From a virus, in IMG/VR virus record IMGVR_UViG_3300027779_001649, positions 1 to 64,000 of that record: a stretch of DNA of 64,000 nucleotides; one strand, 5' to 3'. This document shows, one piece after another, positions 3,138 through 50,715 of the stretch. The notes under the pieces were generated by a model. It ran no database searches and had not been told where the DNA came from. It saw only the letters and a list, made by a program, of their open reading frames with translations. The translations under genes were made by a program, and so were the position numbers. Positions within the stretch are counted from its first letter, which is position 1; each line of letters starts with the position of its first letter.

Positions 3138-3145
3138 ACTATTAC

Positions 3146-4044: not shown

Positions 4045-4892
4045 ACCACCTTACACCTAAATGCAATTTTCTGAGACATTTCTGGCGCATCAGTTTTAGG
4101 AGATAATGTCATATGAGTTTTATCATGTGGAAAAACAATAACACGATTTGGTCTATTTCCTACAATATCACTGGGCCATCCTAAATTCCAACCATGTTTC
4201 CAATGAGTAGAACCTGTTTCTTGGTCATCATAATATACAAGTTCCCCTCCCCATTCTGGCAACCATTCTTGATTGGTTATGTATAAGACTGTATAATATT
4301 CTCCATTGTATGTACCATCTGTATCCCTATGGATTTGTCCACCTTTTTTTGATTGCCGTGTAGGAGGTCTTTCATGACATCTACCATTCAAGAAACAAGT
4401 CCACTGATTTTGGGTTTCTGGAACATCATATTTTTGATAGAAATTTTCTTTATCTACGTAAAATATTTGAGGGCCTTTTAGTCCACTTATGGTTTCTGGT
4501 ACACCATCAAGGGTTCCTTTACCATCAAAAAAATGTTTGTTTATTAATGTCCATAAATTCCAAATTAAAGGATTACGTTCCTGTACAGATTCATCACTCC
4601 ACCCAATTGGATGGCGATATAAACTGAACTTCATAACATCTTCCCAAGAAAAAGCTACTCCTGTAAGATGCATATTTTCAGACATTGCTCCTAATAGATG
4701 ACGAGCATTTATTTTTCCATGTATAGAAGGATTATATTCACTAATAGAAGGAACCATTTTTTGTTGTGGATAGTGTTTGGAATAATTCACCCCTATCCAA
4801 TGTTGATACCAAGAAACACTTTGCCCCCATTCATAAACTTCTTTATGTAGATCTGGGGATATTAATTCGTCAGCCACAATTATATCACTCAT
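4041..4892 (-). CDS. 2OG-Fe(II) oxygenase, prolyl-4-hydroxylase-like
   Basis: This 283-residue protein has HxD at His188/Asp190 (GGQIHRDTDGTYN), strands YYTVLYITNQ and WGGELVYYDD typical of prolyl-4-hydroxylase-like folds, and a distal His256 or His260 in VIVFPHDKTHMTLSP. Start choice: ATG at 4892 follows GAGGTG by a short spacer and lies just after a sigma70-like promoter at 4908-4936, whereas the longer reading would start inside that promoter. It is the first gene of a run going down to the window edge, so it probably leads that operon. The N-terminal 150 residues do not match anything I recognise. Confidence 0.75.
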   Translation of the reverse strand: MSDIIVADELISPDLHKEVYEWGQSVSWYQHWIGVNYSKHYPQQKMVPSISEYNPSIHGKINARHLLGAMSENMHLTGVAFSWEDVMKFSLYRHPIGWSDESVQERNPLIWNLWTLINKHFFDGKGTLDGVPETISGLKGPQIFYVDKENFYQKYDVPETQNQWTCFLNGRCHERPPTRQSKKGGQIHRDTDGTYNGEYYTVLYITNQEWLPEWGGELVYYDDQETGSTHWKHGWNLGWPSDIVGNRPNRVIVFPHDKTHMTLSPKTDAPEMSQKIAFRCKVV

Positions 4893-4907
4893 AGAACACC
4901 TCACATA

Positions 4908-4936
4908 ATAATATATAGTCATCCGAAAAAAGTCAA
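4908..4936 (-). promoter_or_regulatory. Sigma70-like promoter of the oxygenase operon
   Basis: On the minus strand: -35 TTGACT (4931-4936), exactly 17 bp spacer, -10 TATTAT (4908-4913). The predicted start lies close to the ATG at 4892. An inverted repeat CTTAC-N6-GTAAG lies just upstream at 4949-4964. It shares box sequence and spacing with three other promoters in the window. Confidence 0.75.
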
Positions 4937-4988
4937 TGATTTCAAGCCCTTACGTGATAGTAAGAACAAAACGTGAACAGTATGTTTT

Positions 4989-5014
4989 AAAAAAAAGGAC
5001 TCCAATCGGAGTCC
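4989..5014 (-). terminator. Rho-independent terminator after the AAA ATPase gene
   Basis: The minus strand reads GGACTCC-GATT-GGAGTCC followed at once by eight T residues. The 7-bp perfect stem with a 4-nt loop is a textbook intrinsic terminator. It lies 21 nt after the stop codon of the AAA gene and upstream of the next promoter, so it closes the VWA/AAA unit. Confidence 0.9.
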
Positions 5015-5035
5015 CCAAGTTTATGACTAAAGAGT

Positions 5036-6196
5036 CTAGAAAGCGTTTTCTTCTTCATCAGAAGTATCTTCTATCGGAGAATCTTCTTCAGTTGAAAGAT
5101 CTACACCGGCATCAATTTTGGTGTATAAATCCATGAAGGAAGCTTTTGTATCATCATCAAATCGTGCAACACACAATTCTATGGATTTCATTTTATCTCC
5201 AAAGATAGCAAATGCTTTTACGATGTGATCTAATCGGCGGGTAGAGATAACTTCATCAACTCCACCATCATAGAAAGTTTTACGAATAACATCAGCCCAA
5301 GTGACTAAGTTTGCTGCAAACTCATTATCTACAGCACCATACTTTTTCATGGCACCTTTAATAATTTTAGTTTCAGTTAGAACTGAAGCATAAGGCTGTT
5401 CAATCGTAATCGCAAATCGTTCTAGAAAAGCTTCATTGAGAATATTGGTTCCGATAAAACGTCCATCTTCAGAACCTTTACCTTTAGTATTGGCGGTTGC
5501 CATTACGTTAAAACCAGGCTTCGCAGAAATCCATTTGTTGATCTTTTTCAAGAAAACACCCTGACCTTCAAGAACAGGCTGTAATGCAAGCAACTTATTA
5601 GAACCTAAATCACACTCATCTAGAAGAAGAGTACATCCACGTTCCATGGCATCAATTACAGGGCCGGGAACAAACTTAGTTTCACCATTAACGAGTCGGA
5701 AACCACCAAGTAAATCATCCTCATCAGTTTCTATTGTGATGTTCACCCGTATGAGTTCTTTTTTCATTTTGGCGTGAACCTGTTCAATCATAAGAGTCTT
5801 ACCATTACCAGAAAGACCAGTAACAAAGATGGGATAGAACATCCCAGATTTTACAATCTTCTCTATGGTAGGGAAATTACCCCATGCAACAAATCCATCA
5901 AATGTAGCAGGAACTAAATTCTGTTTTTCCATATTAGTCGCAACTAAATTTACAGTAGAAACCTCAGAACTAGGTTCAGAAATAGTAGGAGCAACAGCGG
6001 CAACAGAACCACCTTCAGAGGGCAGTTTGTAAACACCATAACCTACTTTAAACTCTGGTTTCATAAACCAAGTAGGAAACGGAACCTTTGCTTTTTTGGC
6101 AGCTTCCCGTACATTTTCTTTAGAAATATCTGCACCATTACCAAACAACTCGGCAGCAGTATCTACAAATAATTTCTTTCGTGGAGACAAATACAT
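5036..6196 (-). CDS. cobS: CobS/MoxR-like AAA+ ATPase
   Basis: A 386-residue AAA+ protein with Walker A GLSGNGKT at residues 127-134, Walker B LLLDEC at about 190-195, a sensor-1 Asn236 (VMATANT) and an arginine in AFLERF near 260. The ATPase domain is of the AAA_5/MoxR type and is called CobS in marine T4-type phages by similarity to the cobaltochelatase subunit. The first 100 residues are a basic helical segment plus an Ala/Ser/Glu-rich linker. It is directly downstream of a VWA protein; AAA-plus-VWA pairs act together as metal-insertion or remodelling machines. A cobaltochelatase role is uncertain because the large CobN subunit is not in this window. It has its own promoter and a strong terminator. 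Confidence 0.85.
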   Translation of the reverse strand: MYLSPRKKLFVDTAAELFGNGADISKENVREAAKKAKVPFPTWFMKPEFKVGYGVYKLPSEGGSVAAVAPTISEPSSEVSTVNLVATNMEKQNLVPATFDGFVAWGNFPTIEKIVKSGMFYPIFVTGLSGNGKTLMIEQVHAKMKKELIRVNITIETDEDDLLGGFRLVNGETKFVPGPVIDAMERGCTLLLDECDLGSNKLLALQPVLEGQGVFLKKINKWISAKPGFNVMATANTKGKGSEDGRFIGTNILNEAFLERFAITIEQPYASVLTETKIIKGAMKKYGAVDNEFAANLVTWADVIRKTFYDGGVDEVISTRRLDHIVKAFAIFGDKMKSIELCVARFDDDTKASFMDLYTKIDAGVDLSTEEDSPIEDTSDEEENAF

Positions 6197-8800: not shown

Positions 8801-9334
8801 AACATTACTATCACGCCGAGCTCGTACCAGATCCTTAGATTTGATTTCTTGTTTCTTTCTTCGTTTAATTGCCATCTGTAGTCTTAGTTTACTGACAAGA
8901 TCCATGAAGTTTTTACCCTCCATATGATCATATTCGTGTTGGGCGATTCGTGATTCTAATCCACGAAATGGACGTTCTGTAACCTTACCATCCTCATCTT
9001 CATATTTGAGAACGATTGATTCTGGTCTTTTGATCTTCAACCACAGGCCTGGATTAGATAAACAACCTTCATCTTCAAAAACGTGTTCTACACTATATTC
9101 TAATATCTCTGGATTAAAACAAACCAATTTTTCTCTTTTTTGAAAATCTGAAAACATTATAAAGGCTCTTTCCATGATTCCCATTTGATTCGCAGATAAT
9201 CCCAGACCATGAAAATTTTCCATAGTTTCGTTTAAATCTTCTGCTAATTGTTTCCTGTCACACTTCTCTGATACTCCAGATAGTGGGACTTGCATTATTG
9301 GATTATCGTTTCCTATTATTTTAAATATGGCCAT
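8795..9334 (-). CDS. def: Peptide deformylase
   Basis: All three catalytic motifs are present in the 179-residue protein: GLGLSANQMG at residues 43-52 (motif 1), EGCLS at 89-93 with the metal-binding Cys91, and HEYDH at 133-137 with two metal His and the catalytic Glu. The enzyme removes the formyl group from nascent N-terminal methionine. Deformylases are known auxiliary genes of marine T4-type phages, where they are thought to help process newly made proteins. AAGGAGG lies 9 nt before the ATG. It overlaps the upstream radical-SAM gene by 14 nt. It is close to full length for the family. Confidence 0.95.
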   Translation of the reverse strand: MAIFKIIGNDNPIMQVPLSGVSEKCDRKQLAEDLNETMENFHGLGLSANQMGIMERAFIMFSDFQKREKLVCFNPEILEYSVEHVFEDEGCLSNPGLWLKIKRPESIVLKYEDEDGKVTERPFRGLESRIAQHEYDHMEGKNFMDLVSKLRLQMAIKRRKKQEIKSKDLVRARRDSNVA

Positions 9335-10868
9335 ATAAAATGTCCTCCTTGTATTTATCTAACAATTTTAATTTACGTTTTTTTACTTCGTTTCTAAATT
9401 CCGTACCTTTAAAAATGCCAATATTAACTTCTTCTCTTGAAAATCCAAGATTTAACATAGGGAACATGTGTGGTAGATAATCATGCGTCAATAGCCCATC
9501 AGCATTGTCTTTGATTCTCTTGAAGGCATCAGCTGCATAGGCGGAGGCTTCCTTATAATCCCAATGTTCATTCTTCCATTGATGTATCTTACTACCCCGT
9601 TCATACCCATATTTCTCTGCATTCCGATCAAACTCACTTAAAAATACTTTACTGTCTCTATATTTCCCTCTCATCCACTTCTTTGATAGAGATGAGAGAG
9701 TTAATGGATTAAAAGAGACACTATCTAATGAAATCTCTTTATTTATTAATATCTGTACCCATTCCTCTGCTGTTTCTGCTGTTTCGTGTGGTAGTCCTAT
9801 AATAAATGATCCATGTAAGTCTGTATCTCTTCCCCATGATTCCTTTACCTTTTCTAATACTCTACTTATTTTCTCTCTACCTAGTCCCTTACCTATTATC
9901 TTCGCCGATGGGTCATGTAGACTTTCAATTCCGAAAAAGGCTGACTTTTGTCCCATGTCCCTAAGAATAGATATTTGTTCTGGAAATGCATTTAAAAGTT
10001 CTATTCTGGTATAAGCCCAGAAGTTAATACTTATTCCTGTACGTTCTATAGCTCTCTGTACTGCCCTCAATTTTTCTGTTGTTTCGTTGAAGGTATCATC
10101 CATTATTTGGTAATTAGTTACACCCCAAGTATCATAATTATGTTTTAATTCGTTGTATATACTGTCTTCACTTCTAATCCATTTAGGAGATGGTTTTCTA
10201 CCTAATAATGGAAAGGAACAAAATTTACATTTAAATCTACACCCCCTACTAATTTCTATAGGTAAAGATTCATAAGAATATATTATATCCGATTTATCAA
10301 ATGTGGGCTTATGATTATGAAAATCATAACCACTTGAATCCGATTCTAAAATTTTTGGATGACCATCCCATTCCCAATTTTTAAGAAAAGTTAACAAGAT
10401 ATCTTCTGATAATCCTTTAAACCAATGATCAATTATTGAATCATACAGTCTTACAGTTGCTGCCGTTTGTTGTCCCTGGCCGCCCACTATAATTTTCATT
10501 GGTTGTTTAGTTTTCCACTCATTCAATTTTCTTAGATATTTATCAAAAAGTGGACGGACATCTTTACTACTAAACTTAACCCCAAGTTGACTCCTTATTT
10601 TGCGGTTCCTGTTAGTAACACTTAATGGCTGAAGAAAGGTTGTACTAAACCCAATCAGTTTAACTCCTTCAATATTTTCATCTGTCCAACGAAAGAACTC
10701 TTCAGTATAATTTTCAAGAATCCATATAAAGTTATCAATAACTTTAACTTTTAACCCAGTATCTCTTAGTACACTAGCAATTTGATATCCACCTAAAGAT
10801 TTTATAGGTGCAGGATAATTCCCAGAGTGAGATTCTGTAAAATCTGTAAAAATTATAACATCATACAT
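9321..10868 (-). CDS. B12-binding-domain radical SAM protein
   Basis: This 515-residue protein resembles the cobalamin-binding radical-SAM class. The N-terminal 190 residues look like a Rossmann B12-binding domain (MYDVIIFTDF, LGGYQIASVLRDTG, KVIDNF, KLIGFSTTF, IIVGGQG). The radical-SAM motif SRGCRFKCKFC lies near residue 210, followed by IMDDTFN, FFGIESLHD and GSFIIGLPHE, all typical of the barrel. The usual B12 DxHxxG motif is not evident, so the domain may not bind cobalamin. The C-terminal 130 residues are unassigned. It overlaps neighbours by 1 nt upstream and 14 nt downstream, so it belongs to the deformylase-methyltransferase operon. The substrate is unknown. Confidence 0.8.
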   Translation of the reverse strand: MYDVIIFTDFTESHSGNYPAPIKSLGGYQIASVLRDTGLKVKVIDNFIWILENYTEEFFRWTDENIEGVKLIGFSTTFLQPLSVTNRNRKIRSQLGVKFSSKDVRPLFDKYLRKLNEWKTKQPMKIIVGGQGQQTAATVRLYDSIIDHWFKGLSEDILLTFLKNWEWDGHPKILESDSSGYDFHNHKPTFDKSDIIYSYESLPIEISRGCRFKCKFCSFPLLGRKPSPKWIRSEDSIYNELKHNYDTWGVTNYQIMDDTFNETTEKLRAVQRAIERTGISINFWAYTRIELLNAFPEQISILRDMGQKSAFFGIESLHDPSAKIIGKGLGREKISRVLEKVKESWGRDTDLHGSFIIGLPHETAETAEEWVQILINKEISLDSVSFNPLTLSSLSKKWMRGKYRDSKVFLSEFDRNAEKYGYERGSKIHQWKNEHWDYKEASAYAADAFKRIKDNADGLLTHDYLPHMFPMLNLGFSREEVNIGIFKGTEFRNEVKKRKLKLLDKYKEDILYGHI

Positions 10869-12359: not shown

Positions 12360-14062
12360 GATTCTTTTATGTGACTAAAGTTTTTAATTTTCTCAAATCT
12401 AACTGTACTTCTAAATTTATCCACTAACATATCTTGTTTATGACTAATAACAAATACATTTTCTCCGTCAAGAGTATTTAATATTTTTAGAAACTCATCT
12501 GTTCCAGCACCATCTAGAGAACTGTCAAAGATTTCATCTAATATCAACAAGTTCGTATTCGTACTGTTCTTCATCTTTGCAATAGCTCTCCAAGTAAAAA
12601 GTAAGGCAAGGTCTATACGCATTTTCTCACCTTCACTAAAAGATGCATATATAAATTCATCACGATATCGTGACTTGATGGTCTCGTTAAAGTTCTCATC
12701 TAATGTAAAATTAACATAAAACTCCATTGCGTTTAGGTAAGTATTTATTAATTTATTCATGATCGGTAGATATTGTTTAATGATCTTAGTTTTGATACCA
12801 GTGTCCATTAACATATTACGAGAAGCTTCTGAATAGGTTTGATCTTCCTTTAACTTTATTCTCTGTTCCTTTAAACTTATTAAGTGTTTCTCCAGTTTGA
12901 CCAATTCCACCAAATCTGACTGTGCAACTTCCCCACCCTCTAGTTGTGTAATCTCTGCAAGTAGAGTTGTATTAAACTTTTCTAGTTGGAGTATAGAACT
13001 ATTCTCTGTTGCAATCCTAACCTCATTCTCTCTAATCTTTTCTGCAAAGTTTTGAATCTCAGAAATTCTTCGTTCAGATTTTTTTATCGCAATTTCTAGT
13101 TCCTCTAAGGCCTTAGTAAATTTATCCACCTCTTTCTGTTTGGTGGGTATCATTTTATCTGCGTTATCCAATTCTTGTTCACATGTGGGACAAAAATCAT
13201 TATCTTCAAAGAAACGTAACATCTTTGAATTGGAACTCTTCTTCTCTGTTAAAGTAGATTTAATATCTTTTAGTTTAGAATAATCATTATTTACTTTACT
13301 ATTATCAGTAATTTCATCCAATAGCATTGTATTACTAGACGTATGCATAGAAACTGTAGAGTTCTTCTTAAAGATTTCTTCCTCATTATTTGTCATAAGT
13401 ATGGACTTTTCTTTAAGAATATTATCCTTATTATTTTTAACATCCTCTATATACTTCTTCTTCAAATCAACCTTTTCTTCAGTTAATTCAGAATTATATT
13501 GAACATCTCTTTGATCTTCTTGTATGGATTTGAGTTTTTGTTTTAACAACATATTCATTAATGAGAATATCTGAATATCAAGAATATCCTCAACAACTTC
13601 TCTACGTTGTTTTGACTTTAATTGCATAAAGGGAATGAAGGTAGAACTACCCAGAATAACAACCTGAGTAAAACTACGATAGTTCAACTTTAGGATTTGT
13701 TGTTCAAGATATTTTTGGTAATCCCTTGCATTTGCATCTTGGTTATAGAGCTTTTTATTAATATAGATCTCAAATATATTCGGTTTAATACCACGAATAA
13801 CTTTGACATTCTTAGTACCAATCTTAAACTCTACTTCCACAAGAGAGCCTCCATTATTGATACTATTAATTAATTGACCTTTATTAACATTACGAAAGGG
13901 TTTACCAAACAAACCAAAGCACAATGCATCAAGAACAGTAGACTTCCCTGCTCCATTCTCACCTATAATAAGTGTTGTTGAATTTCTGGCTAATTGAATT
14001 TCGGTAAAGTTATTACCAGTTGAGAGAAAATTCTTCCACCTCACAGTCTCAAAATGTATCAC
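12356..14062 (-). CDS. 46: Recombination endonuclease subunit gp46 (SbcC/Rad50-like)
   Basis: The 568-residue product has the Rad50/SbcC layout: Walker A GENGAGKST near residue 34, a coiled coil interrupted by a zinc hook CPTCEQ near residue 292, a second coil, and the ABC signature FSEGEKMRIDLALL with Walker B LLILDEIFDSSLDG near the C-terminus. With gp47 it resects DNA ends for recombination-dependent replication and helps degrade host DNA. T4 gp46 is 560 residues, so it is full length. It is separated from gp47 by three inserted genes (nucleotidyltransferase, kinase, radical SAM). Confidence 0.95.
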   Translation of the reverse strand: MIHFETVRWKNFLSTGNNFTEIQLARNSTTLIIGENGAGKSTVLDALCFGLFGKPFRNVNKGQLINSINNGGSLVEVEFKIGTKNVKVIRGIKPNIFEIYINKKLYNQDANARDYQKYLEQQILKLNYRSFTQVVILGSSTFIPFMQLKSKQRREVVEDILDIQIFSLMNMLLKQKLKSIQEDQRDVQYNSELTEEKVDLKKKYIEDVKNNKDNILKEKSILMTNNEEEIFKKNSTVSMHTSSNTMLLDEITDNSKVNNDYSKLKDIKSTLTEKKSSNSKMLRFFEDNDFCPTCEQELDNADKMIPTKQKEVDKFTKALEELEIAIKKSERRISEIQNFAEKIRENEVRIATENSSILQLEKFNTTLLAEITQLEGGEVAQSDLVELVKLEKHLISLKEQRIKLKEDQTYSEASRNMLMDTGIKTKIIKQYLPIMNKLINTYLNAMEFYVNFTLDENFNETIKSRYRDEFIYASFSEGEKMRIDLALLFTWRAIAKMKNSTNTNLLILDEIFDSSLDGAGTDEFLKILNTLDGENVFVISHKQDMLVDKFRSTVRFEKIKNFSHIKES

Positions 14063-14394
14063 TGACTATAAACCTTCCTTAACCTTGTTGCAGAAATACG
14101 TTCTATCTCAGGATCAAGTCTTTCTTCTTCTATCTTATAACCTACATCTCTACCATAGGTAATGTTCACGATATTTGGAACATCCATAACTTCAAAATCT
14201 GTACCGTGTACAAAACCAGCAACCAATAGTTTTTCAATCATATCATTTCTGTCGTGATGACCCTCATTAGTATCACGAACCATTATTATAACTTGTCCAG
14301 TTTTTGCATGAGCTCGTTTGAAAAGCTCTGTGTGTCCATCGTGCCAAGGCTGATATCTTCCAAGCATTTGTACAGTAGGTTTTCGTCTATCCAT
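14059..14394 (-). CDS. Small nucleotidyltransferase (HxGH family)
   Basis: A 111-residue protein with GRYQPWHDGH at residues 12-21 (HxGH nucleotide-binding motif) and ERISATRLRK near the C-terminus, equivalent to the ISxTxxR motif. This is the cytidylyltransferase/NMN-adenylyltransferase/ATP-sulfurylase superfamily. GRxQPxHxGH is closest to NMN-adenylyltransferase-type enzymes, but at this size the substrate is open. Its first 109 nt overlap, in another frame, the 3' end of the kinase gene, and the overlap encodes the HxGH motif, so both frames are constrained. The pairing with a kinase suggests a two-step nucleotide pathway. Confidence 0.75.
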   Translation of the reverse strand: MDRRKPTVQMLGRYQPWHDGHTELFKRAHAKTGQVIIMVRDTNEGHHDRNDMIEKLLVAGFVHGTDFEVMDVPNIVNITYGRDVGYKIEEERLDPEIERISATRLRKVYSQ

Positions 14395-14744
14395 TTTGTT
14401 ATCCTTAAATCATATTTTTCTGGGGGTTGAAATAGTTTATTTGTATCATCAAATCTCCCCTCTTCTATAGTATCCATCCAAATAATTTTGTCTGGAAAAA
14501 AGAAACTTCTAAATCCTGGCAATGGGCATATAAATGCAGAAATGCTTATAGGATCAAGTTCTGATAATTTACGCATACGTGCAGTTTGATGCTCTCTCCT
14601 TGGAACAGAAAAATCCCAATCATTATATATGGTTCTTACTACATCAGCATCCCAAAAAGGTATACTAAACTGTTTTCCTATTCTTTCACCCAACCAAGTC
14701 TTACCAGAACCAGGCAATCCCATGATTAAAATTTTATGACTCAT
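14286..14744 (-). CDS. Adenylylsulfate-kinase-like P-loop kinase
   Basis: A 152-residue kinase with P-loop GLPGSGKT near residues 8-15, FWDADVVRT (the Asp-x-Asp/Arg substrate site of APS kinases), then FSVPRREHQTARM and SAFICPLPGFRSFF, which follow the APS-kinase pattern of R-x-x-N/H and ISP-x-x-x-x-R. The start at 14744 follows AAGGAAG and lies clear of the upstream radical-SAM stop. APS kinase makes PAPS, the sulfate donor of sulfotransferases; two sulfotransferase-like genes occur at 47.7-49.1 kb. Other P-loop kinases (such as nicotinamide-riboside kinase) cannot be excluded. The C-terminus is shorter than in bacterial CysC. Confidence 0.7.
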   Translation of the reverse strand: MSHKILIMGLPGSGKTWLGERIGKQFSIPFWDADVVRTIYNDWDFSVPRREHQTARMRKLSELDPISISAFICPLPGFRSFFFPDKIIWMDTIEEGRFDDTNKLFQPPEKYDLRITKWIDENLLYKCLEDISLGTMDTQSFSNELMQKLDKL

Positions 14745-14791
14745 TGTGCGAACTTCCTTCTCTTGTTTTTCATCACTCCAAGTGGATAACA

Positions 14792-15805
14792 TTATGCAAA
14801 CTTCTCTTGTAGTTCTGATGCGTCCCAAGTAGATAGACGTATTCTTCCTACTTGCGAACAGAATTTATTACAATCAGACAGGCAACTATCACGGCCCCAT
14901 GATGATTGTAATTTCTCGTAAAATTCGTCTTTCATTATATCGTCAAAAGTTTTAGTAACCAAAGAATTATTACTTCTTTCTATATTATACTTATGATACC
15001 AATTCTGTTCTTTACCATTTTTTGGTTTATTTGGGATATAACAACAAGGCCAGACCCTCTTTAGGAAATCAATATAGAATATATTTCTTTCCTGATATCT
15101 ACAAGATATCTCATAAGTATCTGGTTTCTTTATATGTTTTTTTGTTTCTGAGGGTTCTAGGATTCCATCTTTCCCTCTATATGACCACTGTTCTCCCATA
15201 TTATATTTTCTATTACTCTCCACCTCAATAAATTGCCAAAACCCCATGTGCATTGCAAGTTCTCTAGCTTCTGCTACTTGGTGTTCATTGTGTTTGAATT
15301 TAATCATTCTCCACATTGCTTTACCACCAGAATCAATGAAGGCCTTTGCGTTGTCTATAATCTTATTATAATCTGCACCCACCCTATAATTCTGTAATGA
15401 CTTATTACCTACGCCATCTAATGAGAAGAATATCATACTTCTCCTATCTCCCGAAAAGATCTTACCCAATTCACTCCAGTACTTTGGAGTTTTCATGGAA
15501 CCATTTGTATCTACATGTATTGAGGTGTCAGTGTCTTTTCTCAACCACTTACATATTTCAGAAAACTCTTTTGATGCAAGAGGTTCTGATACATTACCAC
15601 TAAACCGAATAAGTCTTACAGGATGTTTTATATTCCTATAGGCAACCTTAAAGGTCATTAGAGAAGTATCTATTGTATTGAGAGCTGGTATCTTATGTTG
15701 TAGTTTACCATTCTTAATCTCATTCCTAACGCACTGGGGGCACATAAGATTACAGATATTATTGAGTTCCCAATTAACATCTAAAGGTTTTGTAGTATCA
15801 AACAT
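14792..15805 (-). CDS. Radical SAM protein with SPASM-like C-terminal cysteines
   Basis: The 337-residue protein has CxxxCxxC at Cys18/Cys22/Cys25 (NICNLMCPQC), an IRFSGNVSEPL strand in place of GGEP, HVDTNGS and FSLDGVG. The C-terminal third has a second cysteine set: ISCRYQ, VWPCCYIP and CLSDCNKFC, like SPASM or twitch domains that bind an extra Fe-S cluster. It is the fused form of an architecture that occurs as two split gene pairs elsewhere in the window (38885-40113 and 49641-50715). It touches the gp47 stop with a TAATG overlap, so the two are translationally coupled. Substrate unknown. Confidence 0.85.
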   Translation of the reverse strand: MFDTTKPLDVNWELNNICNLMCPQCVRNEIKNGKLQHKIPALNTIDTSLMTFKVAYRNIKHPVRLIRFSGNVSEPLASKEFSEICKWLRKDTDTSIHVDTNGSMKTPKYWSELGKIFSGDRRSMIFFSLDGVGNKSLQNYRVGADYNKIIDNAKAFIDSGGKAMWRMIKFKHNEHQVAEARELAMHMGFWQFIEVESNRKYNMGEQWSYRGKDGILEPSETKKHIKKPDTYEISCRYQERNIFYIDFLKRVWPCCYIPNKPKNGKEQNWYHKYNIERSNNSLVTKTFDDIMKDEFYEKLQSSWGRDSCLSDCNKFCSQVGRIRLSTWDASELQEKFA

Positions 15806-38171: not shown

Positions 38172-38477
38172 TTATACTCCAAAACTTTCACCACATCCAC
38201 AACTACTCGTAGATGTTGGATTTTTCACTGTTAGAAAACTACCACCGAGCTCGGTTATATAATCAATCTCACTACCCAAAACGTACATCTCAGCAAGTGG
38301 GTCAACCACAAGAACATCCTCTATAGGCTCAGACCATTCAACATCAGGCAGATTGCTCTTCAGATTCCAGACATACTGGAAACCAGAACATCCTCCACCG
38401 ACAACAGCCAGTGTTACAAAGTCTCCCTTAGATACAGACTTTAAGTAGTCTCTTGCAGATTGTGTTAATGTTACCAT
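38172..38477 (-). CDS. HesB/IscA-type iron-sulfur carrier
   Basis: A 101-residue A-type carrier with the three invariant cysteines: Cys30 in VVGGGCSGFQY and Cys93/Cys95 in SSCGCGESF. It binds an Fe-S cluster and passes it to apo-proteins. HesB-like genes next to the terminase are known in cyanophages. The phage encodes several radical-SAM enzymes and a DUF59 protein, so cluster delivery to phage enzymes is a sensible inference. A near-match to the late octamer (CATAAATA) lies just upstream. Confidence 0.92.
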   Translation of the reverse strand: MVTLTQSARDYLKSVSKGDFVTLAVVGGGCSGFQYVWNLKSNLPDVEWSEPIEDVLVVDPLAEMYVLGSEIDYITELGGSFLTVKNPTSTSSCGCGESFGV

Positions 38478-38485
38478 ATCGTTAT

Positions 38486-38884
38486 TTATGTCTTTTCTTT
38501 CATTAATTTTTGTAACTCTGCTGTAGAACCAACAAATAAGGCGTTAGTTACATTCTTAGGTGCAGTATTAGGAACGTCCTGTAATCTTTTCATCTTCTCT
38601 TGTAAGTCACCTAGTTTTTCGGTAACTTCTGCGACCTGTTTGATAAGATTTCCAGCAACCTCATATCCTCTTGGATGTTCGCCTTCCTTTGCGAGTTCAA
38701 GTATTCCGTCAATCGCAACTGAACCCTTTTCAACAAGTTCATGAAATTTTTGCCTTTGATATTCATAGTCTGTTTCAATATCCTGTTCCTTATCTGCGAC
38801 AATTAGTTTTGTTACAGGAGTCTCTGTAACCTCTAATTCTTTTCCAATAACACCCAAGGCACTATCTATAGTTTTAGTATCCAT
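38486..38884 (-). CDS. 16: Terminase small subunit gp16
   Basis: A 132-residue helical protein directly before the HesB and gp17 genes. DYEYQRQKFHELVEKGS, DGILELAKEGEHPRGYEVAG and the C-terminal TNALFVGSTAELQKLMKE are typical of gp16 in T4-type phages. It forms a ring that recruits DNA and stimulates gp17. T4 gp16 is 164 residues. Confidence 0.9.
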   Translation of the reverse strand: MDTKTIDSALGVIGKELEVTETPVTKLIVADKEQDIETDYEYQRQKFHELVEKGSVAIDGILELAKEGEHPRGYEVAGNLIKQVAEVTEKLGDLQEKMKRLQDVPNTAPKNVTNALFVGSTAELQKLMKEKT

Positions 38885-39265
38885 TTAGTTCACCTCTACT
38901 ATCTCTTGGACTGATGTGGAATGAGAGTTATATGCTTCGCCAAATTCTTCTCTTAATTTGGTACTTATTGTAGTCGCACAATATTTTTTACATACCCTAG
39001 GAGCATTTTGTGGATCTTTTATTAAACCTTCATAAAATTCTGTCCATTCTTTAGAATTAATTATATCGTCAATAGTCTCTACATTACTTAGTTTTAAATG
39101 TTCTTTAAAGAATATTTCTTCAATACCTATATGGTATGTTGGTGTTTGTCCATCAACAGTTTGATAGGGGTCTGTCCAACAACAAGGAATTAAATATCCC
39201 CTTGCAGAATAACCATAACCTTTACCAGATAAACATCTGGGCTCTAATTTTCTTTTTACTGGCAT
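38885..39265 (-). CDS. Cysteine-rich SPASM-like companion of the upstream radical SAM gene
   Basis: A 126-residue protein from ATG at 39265, with GGAGGAG 8 nt before it. It has LEPRCLSGKGYGYSARGYLIPCCWTDPY near the N-terminus and VCKKYCATT near the C-terminus. These match the C-terminal cysteine set of the fused radical-SAM protein at 14792-15805 (VWPCCYIP, CNKFC), so the SPASM-like half is encoded separately. A clear paralogue is at 50215-50715. It overlaps the radical-SAM stop by 10 nt in another frame. It probably binds an auxiliary Fe-S cluster and acts with that enzyme. Confidence 0.7.
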   Translation of the reverse strand: MPVKRKLEPRCLSGKGYGYSARGYLIPCCWTDPYQTVDGQTPTYHIGIEEIFFKEHLKLSNVETIDDIINSKEWTEFYEGLIKDPQNAPRVCKKYCATTISTKLREEFGEAYNSHSTSVQEIVEVN

Positions 39266-40113
39266 AATGAACTCCTCCTCAACCACTGTTCTTCATTCCA
39301 AGGAAGTTTATCATCCACATCCTTTACTCTATTATTAACTTCAGTAGTAGTAAATGGTTTGCTACTAATAAAATTTTTTGTATTTTTTGGTTTAAATTCA
39401 TCATCATCTCCTCTCCATCTAGAAGAGTATAATTTTAAAAACCTAATACCAGCATCTGTTGCACGTTTCTGAACCTCATCTATGTGATCTTCATTATAAC
39501 TAAAAACTATGCATTGTTGTTCAACCTGTAACCCCATATATTTAGCTATCATCGCCATTTTCCAAAGTTTTTCACCGTCCTGATTAACTCTATACTTATG
39601 ACTTTCTTCTGGTAATCCATCTATACCAAATCTCCACACTGCTAGGGGATGTATTTCAAATGCCTTTTTATACCACTTCTCTGACCTATGTGAAGCTGCG
39701 GTTGCAATACATGTATAGACTTTTTCTTCATAACATCTACGTAAAATATCGTGGAACTTAGGATGGGCGGTTGGATCTGAAATTTGACCACAAAAAAGAA
39801 TATTAGTAAAATGCATAAGAATCTTATCAAAATCTTCAAGGGACATATCGTGACCAGGCGGTTTCATGCCAGAGGCGGCATAATCCTGTCTCCTACATCT
39901 TGGACAGGCTAGAGGACATCTTGGAGATAAATCTATATTAATTTTAGTACGATACTTCGCTTTATATATTAATTCATCATTAGATAATTTATCGTTTGAT
40001 CCCTTTGTCCAATGATCTCGTTGAGTGAGTATTGGTTTTTTTAAAGACCTTTTAGCTATCTGAGTTCTAAGATCTAGTTCTTTTAACTCACCTTTAGTGT
40101 ATTCTACAGGCAT
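39256..40113 (-). CDS. Radical SAM core protein, split type
   Basis: The 285-residue product has CxxxCxxC at Cys66/Cys70/Cys73 (PRCPLACPRCRRQD), then FCGQISDPTAHPKF in place of the GGEP strand, CIATAASHRSEKWYKKAF, WRFGIDGLPEESHKYRVNQ and FLKLYSSRW. It lacks the C-terminal cysteine domain, which is encoded by the next gene. A 60-residue basic N-terminal extension and a 45-residue tail after the core are extra. It is inserted between gp15 and gp16, breaking the usual T4 order. A paralogue is at 49641-50237. Substrate unknown. Confidence 0.85.
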   Translation of the reverse strand: MPVEYTKGELKELDLRTQIAKRSLKKPILTQRDHWTKGSNDKLSNDELIYKAKYRTKINIDLSPRCPLACPRCRRQDYAASGMKPPGHDMSLEDFDKILMHFTNILFCGQISDPTAHPKFHDILRRCYEEKVYTCIATAASHRSEKWYKKAFEIHPLAVWRFGIDGLPEESHKYRVNQDGEKLWKMAMIAKYMGLQVEQQCIVFSYNEDHIDEVQKRATDAGIRFLKLYSSRWRGDDDEFKPKNTKNFISSKPFTTTEVNNRVKDVDDKLPWNEEQWLRRSSLCQ

Positions 40114-40116
40114 AGT

Positions 40117-40917
40117 TTATTCATCGTCACCTGTTACTGGATTAAATGTTTTAGCATCTTCAAAGAAAGAGGTTGCTTCATTAAATCCAAAATTATCATC
40201 AGCTTCAGCTGTCATGGGAGACGGTGTAACCACCAACCTTTGTTCTCTCTTAGGTGATGCATCTGGCATATCTGTATATTGATCTGCTTGCACTGTTTTA
40301 ATAACTTTACTAGAGCTAACTGGACCGTAGAGATAAAATTTACAAGTGAAAGCTAGTGTATATACTATTGCTCGTCTCGCAGTAAAGTCACCTTCATAAC
40401 TATCTTCATATGAAACACTATTAAGAATTAAAGGAATGTCCCTTTTAATTCCCATATCTGCCATATCATTTATCGTCACCGTATAGTCTGGTTGAAAGTA
40501 TGGTAGAATTTGTTCTACGATCTGTAATGCGTCCTCAGATTGTTTAGCCATTATGTAAAGCTCAAATGAGAGATTATAAGGAACAGGCATATATTGTGTA
40601 TCTAGTTGAGTTGAATTTGCACCTTTAACTTTTTTGAATTTCTGTACACGATTAAGTTTACGAGCTGCATCGTATTCTAGATTCTTAATTTCAAATCCTA
40701 TACGTGGAAGTGTAACTGCAACCTGTTTTGTAAGGTCTGCATCTTCACGTAATCGGACTAGAAATTTTTCTTTCGGGCCGTATGCAAGAGGAACTTTCAT
40801 AGTTTGTACTACGGTTCCACTGCTATCTTTACGAACCAAGTGTATGTTGTTGAATATTGATCCAAACGCAACAACCACCTTTCTCATGGTTTCGTGGTAA
40901 AATTGTTGTCCTAACAT
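40117..40917 (-). CDS. 15: Tail completion and sheath stabiliser gp15
   Basis: A 266-residue protein beginning MLGQQFYHETMRKVVVAFGSIFNNI, the N-terminal signature of gp15, with FLVRLREDADLTKQVAVTLPR and GFEIKNLEYDAARK. It caps the tail and joins it to the neck. T4 gp15 is 272 residues. It starts 1 nt inside the gp14 stop. Confidence 0.92.
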   Translation of the reverse strand: MLGQQFYHETMRKVVVAFGSIFNNIHLVRKDSSGTVVQTMKVPLAYGPKEKFLVRLREDADLTKQVAVTLPRIGFEIKNLEYDAARKLNRVQKFKKVKGANSTQLDTQYMPVPYNLSFELYIMAKQSEDALQIVEQILPYFQPDYTVTINDMADMGIKRDIPLILNSVSYEDSYEGDFTARRAIVYTLAFTCKFYLYGPVSSSKVIKTVQADQYTDMPDASPKREQRLVVTPSPMTAEADDNFGFNEATSFFEDAKTFNPVTGDDE

Positions 40918-42776: not shown

Positions 42777-43275
42777 AAAGAAGAGGTCTGGTTACTACGC
42801 AATTATCATCATCAAAGTAACTCTGTTTGACGAAATTTACCCCAGTATATGCGTATAAAGCACTCAATTTTGGATATGACCATATAATTTCACATCCTCT
42901 TTTTCTTCCATAATCCATAGTCTCATTTAATAACCAAGTTGATAGACCTAATCCTCTATGTTTAGGATGTACCCATAACCCCCTAGACCTATAAATTTTA
43001 AGTCCACATTGAGATCCTGAGTTAACACCCACTATTTCTTCATATGATTCTCCATAATGACTAACGTATTTTATTGCTATAAAGACAGAAGTTTTGAGAT
43101 ACCTTTTAATATCTAACTGTCTTATAACTTTATTTCCCTCCAAAGCCCATGTACTATGGGGATAAATGGTTTTCTTATTTTTCCATAAGTCCGACTTCCA
43201 TACCTTATATATCTCCTCAAACGACACGGGTTCTAGATAGTACAGCTTATTTTCCCCAGTAATAATCTGCGGCAT
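42772..43275 (-). CDS. GNAT-family acetyltransferase
   Basis: A 167-residue protein with RGLWVHPKHRGLGLSTWLL near residues 112-130, the acetyl-CoA loop R-x-x-G-x-G/S of GNATs, and a C-terminal SALYAYTGVNFV strand-helix that closes the fold. GNATs transfer acetyl groups to amines of proteins or small molecules. It overlaps the TRAP receptor gene by 29 nt and is the last gene of the operon before gp13. Target unknown; no strong ribosome site precedes it, so coupling to the receptor gene is likely. Confidence 0.8.
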   Translation of the reverse strand: MPQIITGENKLYYLEPVSFEEIYKVWKSDLWKNKKTIYPHSTWALEGNKVIRQLDIKRYLKTSVFIAIKYVSHYGESYEEIVGVNSGSQCGLKIYRSRGLWVHPKHRGLGLSTWLLNETMDYGRKRGCEIIWSYPKLSALYAYTGVNFVKQSYFDDDNCVVTRPLLL

Positions 43276-44323
43276 AATTATAAGGAGTAAATGCTTTGTT
43301 CTTATAAGGAACTACTTTACTTGCCCATTTCTTTTGACTCGCAAGAACTTTCCGAAACCATTTGTTCTTTTTGGATTCTTCTTTAAACATAATATCTATG
43401 GTTTTCAATTCTGCAACAAGAATATCAGGTGGTGTCTTCATGATACGCACCCCATGCTTTTCAACCATTCTTGATAACGCTCTTGCGTTTTCGGATTGTA
43501 TCCAAGTGAGCCACCACAGATAGGACTCATATGCAGCAGAACGCACTGAGGCACGTTGAGAGTCAGATAGACTCCTCCAGATACCACCATTAATAAGAAG
43601 GTCACCAGTATTACTATGTTCATGTAAACTATTTAGATAGTAATATTTCCAGATAGTTGGAAACCCTAGTCTTTCATCTTCTAATCCACCGACAAATTCT
43701 GCACAGTTGATTACACCTTTCTGTCCAGCAGCAAGAATCTCTCCACCAGGCATACCAATAGTCTGCATACCCATACGAGCATATAGTTCTACATTAATGC
43801 CTGTCTGTCTGCACTTAAAGTTTTTAAGGTCTGCAAGGTTTTCAATTGGACGATGGAACCACCCCAAAGGTTGATTCTGAGTAGGCATAACAGGGAAAGG
43901 GACTACATCCAGTTTCAACACTTCTTGATAAAATGTACGATACATCTCTAGTCCACCACCGTGAAACATCCATCCAAGAAAATCAATACCATCCATTCCA
44001 TATGGGCCTCCTAAAGGAGAGTTAAATAGTCCTAGAGTTTTATCCTTACCCACCCAATAATAACTCTGTGTCCATGCACCTCCCACAGCACCAGATGCTG
44101 TTGCATCAAGAACTTGAAAGGCTGGGACTAAAGCACCAGCAGGTTTAATCTCCATCAGAACTTTACCATCAGTTAGAACTTTAACTTTATCTGCAATGAA
44201 CTTTGCTTGTTCATTGAAAGTACTAACAGCAGGATAAGAACTTGCGATTAAGATTTTTGTGCCCGCAGATGCAGGGGAAAAGGTTAATAGGATGGCAGCC
44301 GCAGCCATATAAATATATTTCAT
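43247..44323 (-). CDS. dctP: TRAP transporter periplasmic receptor DctP (TakP-like)
   Basis: A 358-residue secreted receptor with a clear signal peptide (residues 1-20, AILLTFSPASA cleaved before GTK). The mature part has TGKVLMEIKPAG-like DGKVLMEIKPAGALVPAF, LGWFHRPIENLADLKNFKCRQTG (ligand Arg in the hinge), PGGEILAAGQKGVINCAEFVGG and YYLNSLHEHSNTGDLLING. This follows TakP-type receptors that bind 2-oxo-acids, the Arg making the salt bridge to the carboxylate. It follows DctQ and DctM in the same operon, the standard TRAP set. AAGGAG lies before the ATG. Ligand class is inferred. Confidence 0.88.
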   Translation of the reverse strand: MKYIYMAAAAILLTFSPASAGTKILIASSYPAVSTFNEQAKFIADKVKVLTDGKVLMEIKPAGALVPAFQVLDATASGAVGGAWTQSYYWVGKDKTLGLFNSPLGGPYGMDGIDFLGWMFHGGGLEMYRTFYQEVLKLDVVPFPVMPTQNQPLGWFHRPIENLADLKNFKCRQTGINVELYARMGMQTIGMPGGEILAAGQKGVINCAEFVGGLEDERLGFPTIWKYYYLNSLHEHSNTGDLLINGGIWRSLSDSQRASVRSAAYESYLWWLTWIQSENARALSRMVEKHGVRIMKTPPDILVAELKTIDIMFKEESKKNKWFRKVLASQKKWASKVVPYKNKAFTPYNYAADYYWGK

Positions 44324-44349
44324 GATTACTCCTTATTCAAATCACTTCT

Positions 44350-45594
44350 CTAGTTATTTAGGTACGTTGGTAACCACGTTGCTATACTAGGAATCATAAA
44401 AATAATTATCACAGCAAGTACCTGTATCCACATAAACGGCATCATACCTTTAAATATCATACCCAAATCCCATTCTGGAACGACCTGTTTTATATAATAT
44501 GATGTTAACGCAACGGGTGGTGTTAAGTAGGCAGTCTGTATAACTATCCCTAAACAAACTGCAAACCATAACATATCCACACCAGAACTAATAAGAACTG
44601 GTAAGAATATGGGAACAAATACCAACACTACCACAGGCCATTCAAACGGCCATCCCAATAGATGACATAGTACTAGTATACAACCGACTAATGCCCAAGG
44701 GGGTATTGGTAAAGAATTTAAGGTGTCCACTATCACGTTATCGCCGCCTAGTGCAGTAAAGACCGCACCAAATATTGTGGAGGAGATTGCGAGTAGCATA
44801 ACCACAGCAGAAGTGTCTGTAGTTTTTAATAGAGTTTCTTTCAGTTCTAACTTACCGTTTAACAATGCAAGAACTAATGCACCGAAAGCACCAAACGCAC
44901 CAGCTTCTGTAGACGTTGCAAGTCCAAATAACATAGAACCTAACACAGTAGATATAAGAACTGCTAGAGGGATAACATCTATTAAAACTCTACGATAGTC
45001 TGGTGTCTCTTGTTGTTTGGGTACAGAATGAAATAGACAGTATATCGCATACATTGATGCAATCATTAATCCTGGCACTAATGCTCCAGCATAAAGATCA
45101 ATAATACTAAGGTTCATAGTAGGAGCCATAACTATAAGAGGAACGGATGGTGGTATCATAATAAGAGAACCACCACCAGCAATAACTCCTGCCGTCAATT
45201 TCGGATTGTAACCTAGTTTCATCATATGAGGAGCTGCCATAATACCAAGTAATGTTACAGACGCACCAACTACTCCTGTCGCAAGACTTATCAATACTGC
45301 AATAACAATAACAACTAAGTTAAGATTACCAACTATAGTTTTCATACTATAGAATAGTTTCTCAACTAATCCTGCCTTTTCGCAAATATAACCCATGAAT
45401 ATAAACATAGGTATAGCCATGAATACTTCGTTTGATAATGCGCCGACTAAGTTATAGTACGCAAGATCAAATACATTCTCCCCCATAGAGAGAAATCCAA
45501 AACCTAATGCTAGAAATATAAGAGTGAAAGCTACAGGTAAACCCAAAAATATACCTATAATCATAGTCACTAACATCACAATCGCAAGCAACAC
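44350..45594 (-). CDS. dctM: TRAP transporter large permease DctM
   Basis: A 414-residue membrane protein with about 11-12 hydrophobic helices. Signatures of DctM: GVVGASVTLLGIMAAPHM, VIAGGGSLIMIPPSVPLIV, STEAGAFGAFGALVLALL and LTPPVALTSYYIKQVVPE. It forms the sodium-coupled transport channel. GTG start, with AGGAAG 7 nt upstream. It overlaps DctQ by 19 nt, as is common in bacterial TRAP operons. Length is normal (about 425). Confidence 0.9.
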   Translation of the reverse strand: MLLAIVMLVTMIIGIFLGLPVAFTLIFLALGFGFLSMGENVFDLAYYNLVGALSNEVFMAIPMFIFMGYICEKAGLVEKLFYSMKTIVGNLNLVVIVIAVLISLATGVVGASVTLLGIMAAPHMMKLGYNPKLTAGVIAGGGSLIMIPPSVPLIVMAPTMNLSIIDLYAGALVPGLMIASMYAIYCLFHSVPKQQETPDYRRVLIDVIPLAVLISTVLGSMLFGLATSTEAGAFGAFGALVLALLNGKLELKETLLKTTDTSAVVMLLAISSTIFGAVFTALGGDNVIVDTLNSLPIPPWALVGCILVLCHLLGWPFEWPVVVLVFVPIFLPVLISSGVDMLWFAVCLGIVIQTAYLTPPVALTSYYIKQVVPEWDLGMIFKGMMPFMWIQVLAVIIIFMIPSIATWLPTYLNN

Positions 45595-46019
45595 TTCCTC
45601 ACTTCCTGTACACCATATATCAATAACAAAATTAATCCTAAAGTAATAGAAAATTTATATGGCCATATTATTAATTGCGTCATTGTATTGGAACTCTTTT
45701 CCCATATAGAAATGCTTCTAAAACTATCCATTGCAGAATAGTACGTGAGAATACCAATAGAGGGAAAGAATAGACAGTAACCTAGAAGATCTATGATTGA
45801 TTTTGTTCTATCTGAAAAGTTCTTCCAGTAGATATCTGTTCGTATGTGAGTTCCTTTGGAAAGACTATAACTAGCACCTAATATAATTAATGCGCCATAT
45901 AATTGTGGTACGATATCAACAGCAAAGTCAAATCTTAAATCAAAAAAAAATCTACCTAGAACATTGGTAACAGTTAGTAAAACGATTCCCAAAACAAACC
46001 ATGAATATATTTTAATCAT
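45576..46019 (-). CDS. dctQ: TRAP transporter small permease DctQ
   Basis: A 147-residue protein with four hydrophobic segments, the DctQ topology: SWFVLGIVLLTVTNVLGRFF, the LYGALIILGASYSLSKGTHIRTD signature near residues 40-62, IDLLGYCLFFPSIGILTYYS and a C-terminal helix. It supports DctM and links it to DctP. The ATG follows the oxygenase stop directly (TAG-ATG), so translation is coupled. It is slightly short for the family (about 160). Confidence 0.85.
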   Translation of the reverse strand: MIKIYSWFVLGIVLLTVTNVLGRFFFDLRFDFAVDIVPQLYGALIILGASYSLSKGTHIRTDIYWKNFSDRTKSIIDLLGYCLFFPSIGILTYYSAMDSFRSISIWEKSSNTMTQLIIWPYKFSITLGLILLLIYGVQEVRKCCLRL

Positions 46020-49097: not shown

Positions 49098-49657
49098 ACG
49101 GAAAAAATATGCCTAAATGGCACAGGAATGATGATTTTCTACATGACCTTGCTATATCATTGGTAGAAGTTCATACCAGAGAACCTCAGAACGAACCAGA
49201 AACAAATATGTTTAAGATAGCAGATGGTCTTGATACCTCTGATCCATTTGTTAAGGAAGCAGTAAGGCACTTCAATGTAATAAGAGAAGACTTAGCATGT
49301 AAGAGTGCAGTTCTACATGGTGATTTGTGGAACGAGAATATAATCATAAAAGAAAATGGTAGATTATCAGGACTGATTGATTGGGAACACACTCAAATAG
49401 GCGACCCTCATTGGGACTTCCGTATGATTAGAAGATTTATAGGCTGGGACGATTTACATTGGCTTATCACTTTGTATAATGCTAAGGCTCAATATAAAAT
49501 TAATTCTGCTACTATTTACATCTTAGATAAACTAGCACTTTGCCATCAGTATCAATATAGACTAAGAAAAAATGATAGCCCTCTTTGGAACGACACCGCA
49601 TTATTTAAAGAGTATATGGAAAGATGGCCAGTGTGCGTTAATGAAATATCCGACTAG
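49085..49657 (+). CDS. APH/choline-kinase-like phosphotransferase, C-lobe only
   Basis: The 190-residue product has the APH catalytic and metal motifs: VLHGDLWNENIII near residues 76-88 (catalytic Asp80 and Asn85) and GLIDWEHTQIGDPHWDF near 96-112 (Mg-binding Asp99). Normal family members are about 300 residues; the N-terminal ATP-binding lobe is absent. It may be a remnant, or work as a binding or regulatory protein. GGAG lies 9 nt before the ATG. It overlaps neighbours on both sides within the plus-strand island. Confidence 0.7.
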   Translation: MVWIDGKNMPKWHRNDDFLHDLAISLVEVHTREPQNEPETNMFKIADGLDTSDPFVKEAVRHFNVIREDLACKSAVLHGDLWNENIIIKENGRLSGLIDWEHTQIGDPHWDFRMIRRFIGWDDLHWLITLYNAKAQYKINSATIYILDKLALCHQYQYRLRKNDSPLWNDTALFKEYMERWPVCVNEISD

Positions 49658-50237
49658 AACATATAACTTTTATAATAAGCCTATTAATCTAGATATAGTT
49701 CCCAGATGCACCCTCCTTTGTTCCAAGTGTATGAGACAATCAGATTTTTATAAGTTTGTAGATAAAAGTAAATTAGAAGAGATAAGTATAAAAGACTACG
49801 AAAAGATTCTCAACTGTTTTTCATATGTTGAATGGTGTGGTCAAACTGGTGACCCCATATTTCATACTAAATTCTTTACTCTTCTTGAGATGAGCAGGGG
49901 TACTAAATTAGACATCCATACTGCCGCCTCACATAAACCTAAAGAATGGTATAAGAAAGCATTTAAAACTAATAAAGATGCAAAGTGGATATTTGGGGTA
50001 GATGGGTTACCAAAGGACAGCCATATCTATAGAATAAATCAAGATGGTGAATTCCTATTTGAAGTTATGAAAATGGGATCAGATATGGGTTTAGAGATTC
50101 AGTGGCAGATGATAAAGTTTAAGTATAATCAAAATAACATAGATGAAGTAATGCAGCTCTGTAGAGATAATTCTATCAGTTTTAAATTAATAAGATCCTC
50201 AAGGTTCGTATCAGATGACCCACTCAGACCAATTTAA
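49641..50237 (+). CDS. Radical SAM core protein, split type, second copy
   Basis: The 198-residue product has CxxxCxxC at Cys23/Cys27/Cys30 (PRCTLLCSKCMRQ), EWCGQTGDPIFHTKF, DIHTAASHKPKEWYKKAF and WIFGVDGLPKDSHIYRINQDGE. These match the radical-SAM protein at 39256-40113 step by step. The C-terminal cysteine domain is again in the next gene. I took ATG at 49641, after the previous gene's reading, because the longer start lies in the APH-like gene. It is about 87 residues shorter than copy 1. Confidence 0.8.
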   Translation: MKYPTRTYNFYNKPINLDIVPRCTLLCSKCMRQSDFYKFVDKSKLEEISIKDYEKILNCFSYVEWCGQTGDPIFHTKFFTLLEMSRGTKLDIHTAASHKPKEWYKKAFKTNKDAKWIFGVDGLPKDSHIYRINQDGEFLFEVMKMGSDMGLEIQWQMIKFKYNQNNIDEVMQLCRDNSISFKLIRSSRFVSDDPLRPI

Positions 50238-50715
50238 ACCAAGATGTATATCAGGACAATGTTTAGGGCATTCTAATAAGGGGTACTTAGTTCCTTGTTG
50301 TTTTGTAGATGCATTTTATGATAATATTGAGAAAAAGAAACTCATACATCATGATAACGATAAACTTAATGCATTGTGGGATACATCCTTAAAAATTTCC
50401 AATAATAACCATATACATGATATAACAATGAGTGATATATGGATGGATTTTTATACCATGTTACAGGATAAAGATCAAGAGAAACCTTTAATGTGTATTA
50501 AGTGTTGTGACCCTGTATATACTAAGGAGTTAAAAGAAGGTGAAATAGCTCCAACACGATTTAGCCAGAAGACTAATCCAGTACATGCTGTCAGCAGAAG
50601 AAGTACAGAAGTAACTCATGTGATAAAGATTAATAGTATGTCAGTAAATGATGAACTTTTGGTGATGACCTCATCTGGCCGACCTAAGCCAAAAGATTAT
50701 AAACAAAGAGAATGA
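50215..50715 (+). CDS. Cysteine-rich SPASM-like companion, second copy
   Basis: The 166-residue product has FKPRCISGQCLGHSNKGYLVPCC near residues 7-29 and MCIKCCDPVYTKEL near 94-107, paralogous to the companion at 38885-39265 (EPRCLSGKG-GYLIPCC and CKKYC). It starts 23 nt inside the radical-SAM gene, in the +1 frame. It has a longer Ser/Arg/Thr-rich C-terminus than copy 1. The last 19 nt overlap the PP-loop gene of the other strand. Likely an auxiliary Fe-S module for the radical-SAM partner. Confidence 0.65.
   Translation: MTHSDQFKPRCISGQCLGHSNKGYLVPCCFVDAFYDNIEKKKLIHHDNDKLNALWDTSLKISNNNHIHDITMSDIWMDFYTMLQDKDQEKPLMCIKCCDPVYTKELKEGEIAPTRFSQKTNPVHAVSRRSTEVTHVIKINSMSVNDELLVMTSSGRPKPKDYKQRE

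Follow-up and report, generated by a model that had tools for sequence, protein, structure and literature searches.

Background

Two places in a stretch of 64,000 nucleotides of viral DNA, referred to below as the window, bear a gene for a radical-SAM core next to a gene for a cysteine-rich companion protein. The window is part of an 88.8-kb virus record with tail, neck and packaging genes of T4-like phage type. The locus raises the question whether each pair forms one enzyme built from two polypeptides, or whether an ordinary fused gene has been split by error, by decay or by a shift of reading frame. An earlier note on this DNA, made from the sequence alone, had favoured a duplicated two-subunit system.

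The SPASM/twitch radical-SAM enzymes that we found described are all single-chain, which makes the roles of the auxiliary clusters and of the SAM cluster hard to separate. Examples of single radical-SAM reactions spread over two polypeptides are those of CofG/CofH and of LipS1/LipS2, in which both polypeptides have a radical-SAM barrel; in the pairs studied here, unlike in these systems, the barrel is on one polypeptide and the auxiliary-cluster domain on the other. Closer in composition is BtrN, the twitch dehydrogenase of butirosin biosynthesis, which likewise has a radical-SAM core and an auxiliary-cluster domain and holds one auxiliary [4Fe-4S] cluster by four cysteines in a C-terminal twitch domain (PMC9012708). 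BtrN, however, is one chain, whereas core and auxiliary domain are separate genes here; according to the accessible part of the same article, its pathway also uses an aminotransferase. Radical-SAM genes are known from pelagimyophages and marine T4-like phages, the phage group to which our locus belongs, and one T4-like genome has 12 of them together with an A-type carrier and paaD (accessible parts of PMC7029224 and PMC5332604, the latter for the single genome). A core/SPASM split or a two-subunit enzyme is not mentioned in the accessible parts of these two articles, and targeted searches of the open-access literature, with subscription journals and preprints outside their scope, found no description of a split radical-SAM/SPASM enzyme.

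Methods

A profile of six cores was searched against IMG/VR, which gave at least 336 relatives, and against 84,980 prokaryote species. The best 80 of the 336 were carried forward. Core and companion HMMs were run iteratively on every ORF of the fetched loci as well as of the window. Retrieval of these loci relied mostly on the core sequence by itself, so fused forms would not have been missed by design, the coverage being that of the 80 most similar relatives. For the AlphaFold model of pair 2 the overlap was read through via a four-letter word (CCAC=P), as a modelling device only.

Results

The first pair lies on the minus strand. Core 1 (39256..40113, 285 aa), the radical-SAM domain subunit, carries the CxxxCxxC motif as PRCPLACPRC, matches PF04055 in the Pfam profile search (E 9e-7, 29.6 bits vs a cut-off of 29.5) and is conserved in loci L001-L008. 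Its TAA stop falls inside the start of companion 1 (38885..39265), within the 10-nt stop/start overlap ATGCCAGTAA (39256..39265), which is read directly from the sequence and is also present in loci L004, L005 and L008. Companion 1, the putative SPASM/twitch-type Fe-S subunit, is cysteine-rich and matches PF13186 weakly (18.4 bits, below the curated cut-off of 21.5). Its ORF had been opened at GTG 39286 in the earlier note; the start is most likely ATG 39265, upstream of which the sequence has a Shine-Dalgarno-like GAGGAGGAG (39272..39280, minus strand) within the core reading frame. The pair is placed between two virion genes of the same strand, the tail sheath stabilizer gp15 directly before core 1 (40117..40917; phrog_227, E 3e-94) and the terminase small subunit gp16 (38486..38884; phrog_445, E 9e-43), whose start directly follows the companion stop and whose gene was found in 9 loci of the pair 1 clade. 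Two genes downstream of the pair, also on the minus strand, is a HesB/IscA-type Fe-S carrier (38172..38477; PF01521, E 1e-7), a plausible cluster donor.

The second pair is on the plus strand. Core 2 (49641..50237), in an ORF open from ATG 49572, has the motif as PRCTLLCSKC and matches phrog_21308 (E 4e-13); it scores 240 bits with the core HMM and gave no PF04055 match of its own in the Pfam profile search. Companion 2 (50215..50715), again a putative SPASM/twitch-type Fe-S subunit, starts at ATG 50215, has the five conserved cysteines and scores 73-87 bits with the companion HMM. Since core 2 ends at 50237, the two genes overlap directly in the sequence by 23 nt (50215..50237, plus strand) with a +1 offset, which differs from the offset of pair 1, and the overlap is identical in locus L021, a 99% identical contig. 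Sulfotransferase-, kinase- and glycosyltransferase-like genes are the neighbours of this pair.

The earlier note was thus right that a core and a cysteine-rich companion occur twice as separate ORFs, at the coordinates and in the frames that it gave. Its view that the pairs are homologous gene by gene is borne out by 38% identity between the cores and ~30% between the companions, and the common break point is real too: both companions begin P-R-C-(L/I)-S-G, the P being kept in 54 and the C in all of the 58 companions of the family.

The SAM-cluster motif CxxxCxxC is present in 58/58 non-redundant cores, and the companions have the pattern C..PCC..D..I..CxxxC, with five cysteines and a fixed Asp and Ile, invariant in all 58. 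PF13186 (SPASM) matches 50 of the 58 companions at E<=0.1 (best E 2.5e-7). Five cysteines are too few for the two clusters of a full SPASM domain, which suggests from the sequence that the companion is twitch-like and holds a single auxiliary cluster, like BtrN or MoaA, and not two. Among solved structures the model of core 2 is closest to SuiB (Z 13.4, rmsd 2.1 over 152 residues), followed by BlsE (Z 12.9), SkfB (Z 12.7) and PqqE (Z 12.1). SuiB, SkfB and PqqE thus have the barrels most like the core model and the companions match the Pfam SPASM family, but these three enzymes are fused, and a SPASM domain proper has more cysteines than our companions and binds two auxiliary clusters with them. 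The best solved-structure match of the companion profile was BtrN (4m7s), weak at E 0.18; with a larger profile of 58 companions chance matches to viral polymerases rank ahead of it, so that we take BtrN as a lead only. The lone companion model (pLDDT 77), a small metal-bound domain modelled without metal, matched no solved structure; this does not point to a new fold. In the AlphaFold read-through model of pair 2 the core is confident but the placement of the companion on it is not trustworthy (pTM 0.60), and we draw no claim from that placement.

The split recurs in other phages. An IMG/VR core search found the pair 1 locus, at 100% identity across the core, in three other assemblies, and also found relatives at 78%, 56% and 42% identity to core 1; the break is identical in all of them. 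In the cultured Pelagibacter phage Mosig EXVC030M the pair is annotated as two genes, Mosig_00084 and Mosig_00085. Altogether the companion family was found beside radical-SAM genes in 76 distinct pairs of other contigs, the kind of recurrence for which the earlier note had proposed to look. Only three contigs matched among the 84,980 prokaryote species; these (L106-L108) are MAG contigs with the same or similar cassettes, one of which (L108) adjoins a gene that is tail-fibre-like by eye, and they probably derive from phages whose DNA was binned into MAGs.

The fetched loci and the window gave 135 core ORFs and 124 companion ORFs, none of which has both domains; relatives are never fused, contrary to the possibility raised in the earlier note that other phages always have the fused form. 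Ten records examined in full contain 19 split cores and the same number of companions; one further core-like match (78 bits in a 412-aa frame) is of a distant type. A companion adjoins the core in 88 of the 94 testable distinct cores, the six exceptions being distant relatives, and companions without an adjacent core are found at L057:4037-4493, L051:2544-3000 and L046:5539-5995. The order of the genes is reversible: the companion precedes the core at L046:1139-2151, L055:5931-6576 and L068:6039-6588, where the codons touch as TAATG or ATGA, as well as in records G001, G002 and G003. Because the split is common to all the close relatives that we examined, nearly all of which are viral, it is no sequencing error and very probably marks a genuine two-subunit enzyme family.

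A separate arrangement was seen in locus L067, where a divergent core (4767-5462) is followed, after an ATGA overlap, by a cysteine-rich ORF (5459-5839) without a companion HMM match; this may be a second independent split, the tree position of which is unsafe.

The junctions and the selection on both genes bear on how the two halves are expressed. Of the 76 distinct pairs, 35 have a frame offset of +1 and 41 have one of -1; an offset of 0 does not occur. A stop/start overlap is present in 65 of these pairs, 63 times of 23 nt or less, and the companion start is ATG in 74 of the 76. Motifs of the Shine-Dalgarno type occur at 35.5% of companion starts vs 7.8% of control ATGs. The dN/dS ratios of 0.20-0.39 for cores and 0.20-0.55 for companions indicate purifying selection on both genes, which together with the 76 distinct pairs excludes chance ORFs.

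It is highly improbable that programmed ribosomal frameshifting or transcriptional slippage fuses both frames into one protein, as the earlier note had considered when it proposed to look for a frameshift linking the halves. The short overlaps are the geometry that a shift would need, but a programmed shift would hold its direction and its site, whereas the offset is +1 or -1 depending on the relative and an in-frame slippery heptamer is found in only 2 of the 41 pairs of -1 offset. The pairs thus lack the conserved shift direction and the slippery site of a programmed frameshift; moreover, the companions have their own ATG, often with a Shine-Dalgarno motif, and pairs of reversed order cannot be joined in this way. 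That sequencing error, misassembly or gene decay split an ordinary fused gene has a practically negligible probability, and nothing was found in its favour. A single-base error joining the two frames, also raised in the earlier note, is at odds with a break that is identical in many independent assemblies and in cultured Mosig, and the purifying selection in both frames and the retention of all catalytic cysteines speak against decay. Frameshifting, error and decay are all rejected.

All split cores form one clade (92/97 in the tree), apart from the protein encoded at 14792..15805 of the window and from proteins of Campylobacter phage CP220. Phages CP220 and CPt10 encode tandem radical-SAM genes related to our cores (PMC2853527), but those of CP220 are single chains of about 290-340 aa that fall outside the split clade. 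Pair 1 groups with other gp15-gp16 pairs in a supported clade that includes L004, L006, L015 and L017; pair 2 is on a long branch whose placement is unresolved in the tree and which does not join pair 1. The earlier note is only partly right in speaking of a duplication. Both pairs belong to one large viral family, but as old members that are not sisters, and not as products of a recent duplication. The tree does not unite them and gives no support to a local duplication as the source of both; the pairs are better explained by two acquisitions independent of each other or by a paralogy of long standing.

The protein at 14792..15805 (minus strand; PF04055 31 bits, core HMM 143 bits) is distantly related and combines a core with a cysteine-rich C-terminal half on a single polypeptide. 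The earlier note had described it as having both halves fused. It does have both, but its second half resembles the companions only weakly (hhalign probability 81, E 1.2e-5) and gives no match with the companion HMM. In the tree the protein stands apart from the split clade, of which it is a distant cousin and not a member.

Discussion

The two-subunit system proposed in the earlier note agrees with a split conserved across phages, 1:1 gene numbers, a reversible gene order, the lack of any fused form in the family and purifying selection in both frames, and we consider it very probable that the pairs are two-subunit radical-SAM enzymes. In every distinct pair the auxiliary domain is in a separate ORF and not C-terminal in the same chain; the pairs would work like a SPASM/twitch enzyme but are not one in the strict single-chain sense. 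The explanation as a whole, a two-subunit SPASM/twitch radical-SAM enzyme with its auxiliary cluster in trans and a surface sugar as its likely substrate, seems to us a probable one.

In the mechanism that we propose, the two polypeptides of each pair would make up a single enzyme. The core is, by sequence and model, a (partial) radical-SAM TIM barrel, whose CxxxCxxC motif would bind the SAM-cleaving [4Fe-4S] cluster. The companion is, by profile match and cysteine pattern, a stand-alone SPASM/twitch-type domain in which the conserved C, PCC and CxxxC may hold an auxiliary Fe-S cluster. The stop/start overlap, seen along with 1:1 gene numbers, could couple translation so that the subunits are made together at about 1:1. 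Core and companion would then bind as a heterodimer, with the companion cluster presumably in the position that the C-terminal domain occupies in BtrN, MoaA or SuiB, and this cluster may take an electron from, or hold, the substrate radical. Such roles of an auxiliary cluster, as electron acceptor or substrate holder, were proposed for BtrN and observed for SuiB (PMC9012708). Phage-encoded Fe-S carriers might help to load the clusters: besides the carrier downstream of pair 1, a PaaD-like FeS_assembly gene is directly upstream of 7 cores and HesB directly upstream of 3.

The companion might instead be a free protein that transfers electrons or delivers clusters, either for the core or for several radical-SAM enzymes, and no fixed subunit of an active site. 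Some companions are indeed apart from any core (L046, L051, L057) and these phages encode many radical-SAM proteins, but we judge this quite improbable in view of the 19:19 ratio of split genes in whole records, of the adjacency in 88/94 testable distinct cores and of the SPASM homology, as this domain is part of the enzyme elsewhere. The divergence of core and companion is also correlated (r = 0.79, Mantel, 58 non-redundant pairs; 0/5000 permutations reached this value), which, being expected from shared ancestry as well, supports the pairing only together with adjacency and 1:1 numbers. A bolder extension of the two-subunit reading, and a doubtful one, is a virus-specific radical-SAM class in which the auxiliary cluster in trans is an exchangeable subunit; phages with several pairs could then mix cores and companions, giving a combinatorial radical chemistry that would make or modify a surface molecule not made by cells.

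As to the substrate, our tentative guess is a sugar, or a small molecule resembling one, that serves in the modification of surface glycans. It comes from the sulfotransferase-, kinase- and glycosyltransferase-like genes beside pair 2 and from a large sister clade, in which a DegT sugar-type aminotransferase is present in 10/10 records and which also travels with a carbamoyltransferase, an SGNH-like protein (named by eye) and another radical-SAM protein. DegT is absent from the 88.8-kb record of the window, so that this argument is borrowed from the sister clade. A peptide or a phage or host protein as the substrate of the same two subunits, in a RiPP-like or virion-protein modification, appears somewhat unlikely. 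The position of pair 1 between the virion genes gp15 and gp16 in its clade speaks for it, as do the nearest solved core fold, which belongs to the peptide cyclase SuiB (SkfB and PqqE follow closely), and the many studied SPASM enzymes that act on peptides (PMC9012708). Yet none of the genes that came up in this analysis was recognised as coding for a precursor peptide, and no peptide substrate was seen; the sugar-nucleoside enzyme BlsE scores about the same as SuiB, so that the barrel fold does not tell the substrate, and DegT, carbamoyltransferase and SGNH in the large clade are typical of sugar or small-molecule pathways. Radical-SAM cassettes occur in the host recognition cluster of pelagimyophages (accessible part of PMC7029224), which along with the neighbours in the sister clade favours sugar or small-molecule chemistry at a surface.

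These data give good support to a radical-SAM chemistry of the SPASM/twitch kind that has its auxiliary domain in trans and is almost restricted to viruses. In a natural two-subunit version each cluster can be prepared, omitted, mutated and exchanged independently, and the debated role of auxiliary clusters as electron acceptors (PMC9012708) becomes directly testable. At least 336 marine viral relatives and the near absence from 84,980 prokaryote species suggest that abundant ocean phages carry a chemistry of their own, apparently in or near host-recognition genes.

Several further genes were noticed. A protein with the start MNTVNIVCTGKPGDGLLRYSYEHCCYLN (L031:2111-2983), which has no Pfam match and has relatives in 50 loci, is encoded directly upstream of 40 of 104 cores and is among the proteins that travel with the large sister clade. 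The window has five radical-SAM proteins in its 64 kb (2265-3179, 9321-10868, 14792-15805, 39256-40113 and 49641-50237), of which the one at 9321 resembles B12-type PhpK P-methyltransferases (TIGR04479; the 80 bits fall short of the curated cut-off of 600). The ORFs 14059-14394 and 14286-14828 (minus strand), by eye nucleotide kinase- and nucleotidyltransferase-like, overlap by 109 nt, which may reflect a further split gene or a start that was wrongly placed. Finally, a complete TRAP transporter (DctP, DctM and DctQ; PF03480, PF06808 and PF04290) lies at 43250-46019 on the minus strand, flanked by a neck gene near 41931 and a 2OG-Fe(II) oxygenase.
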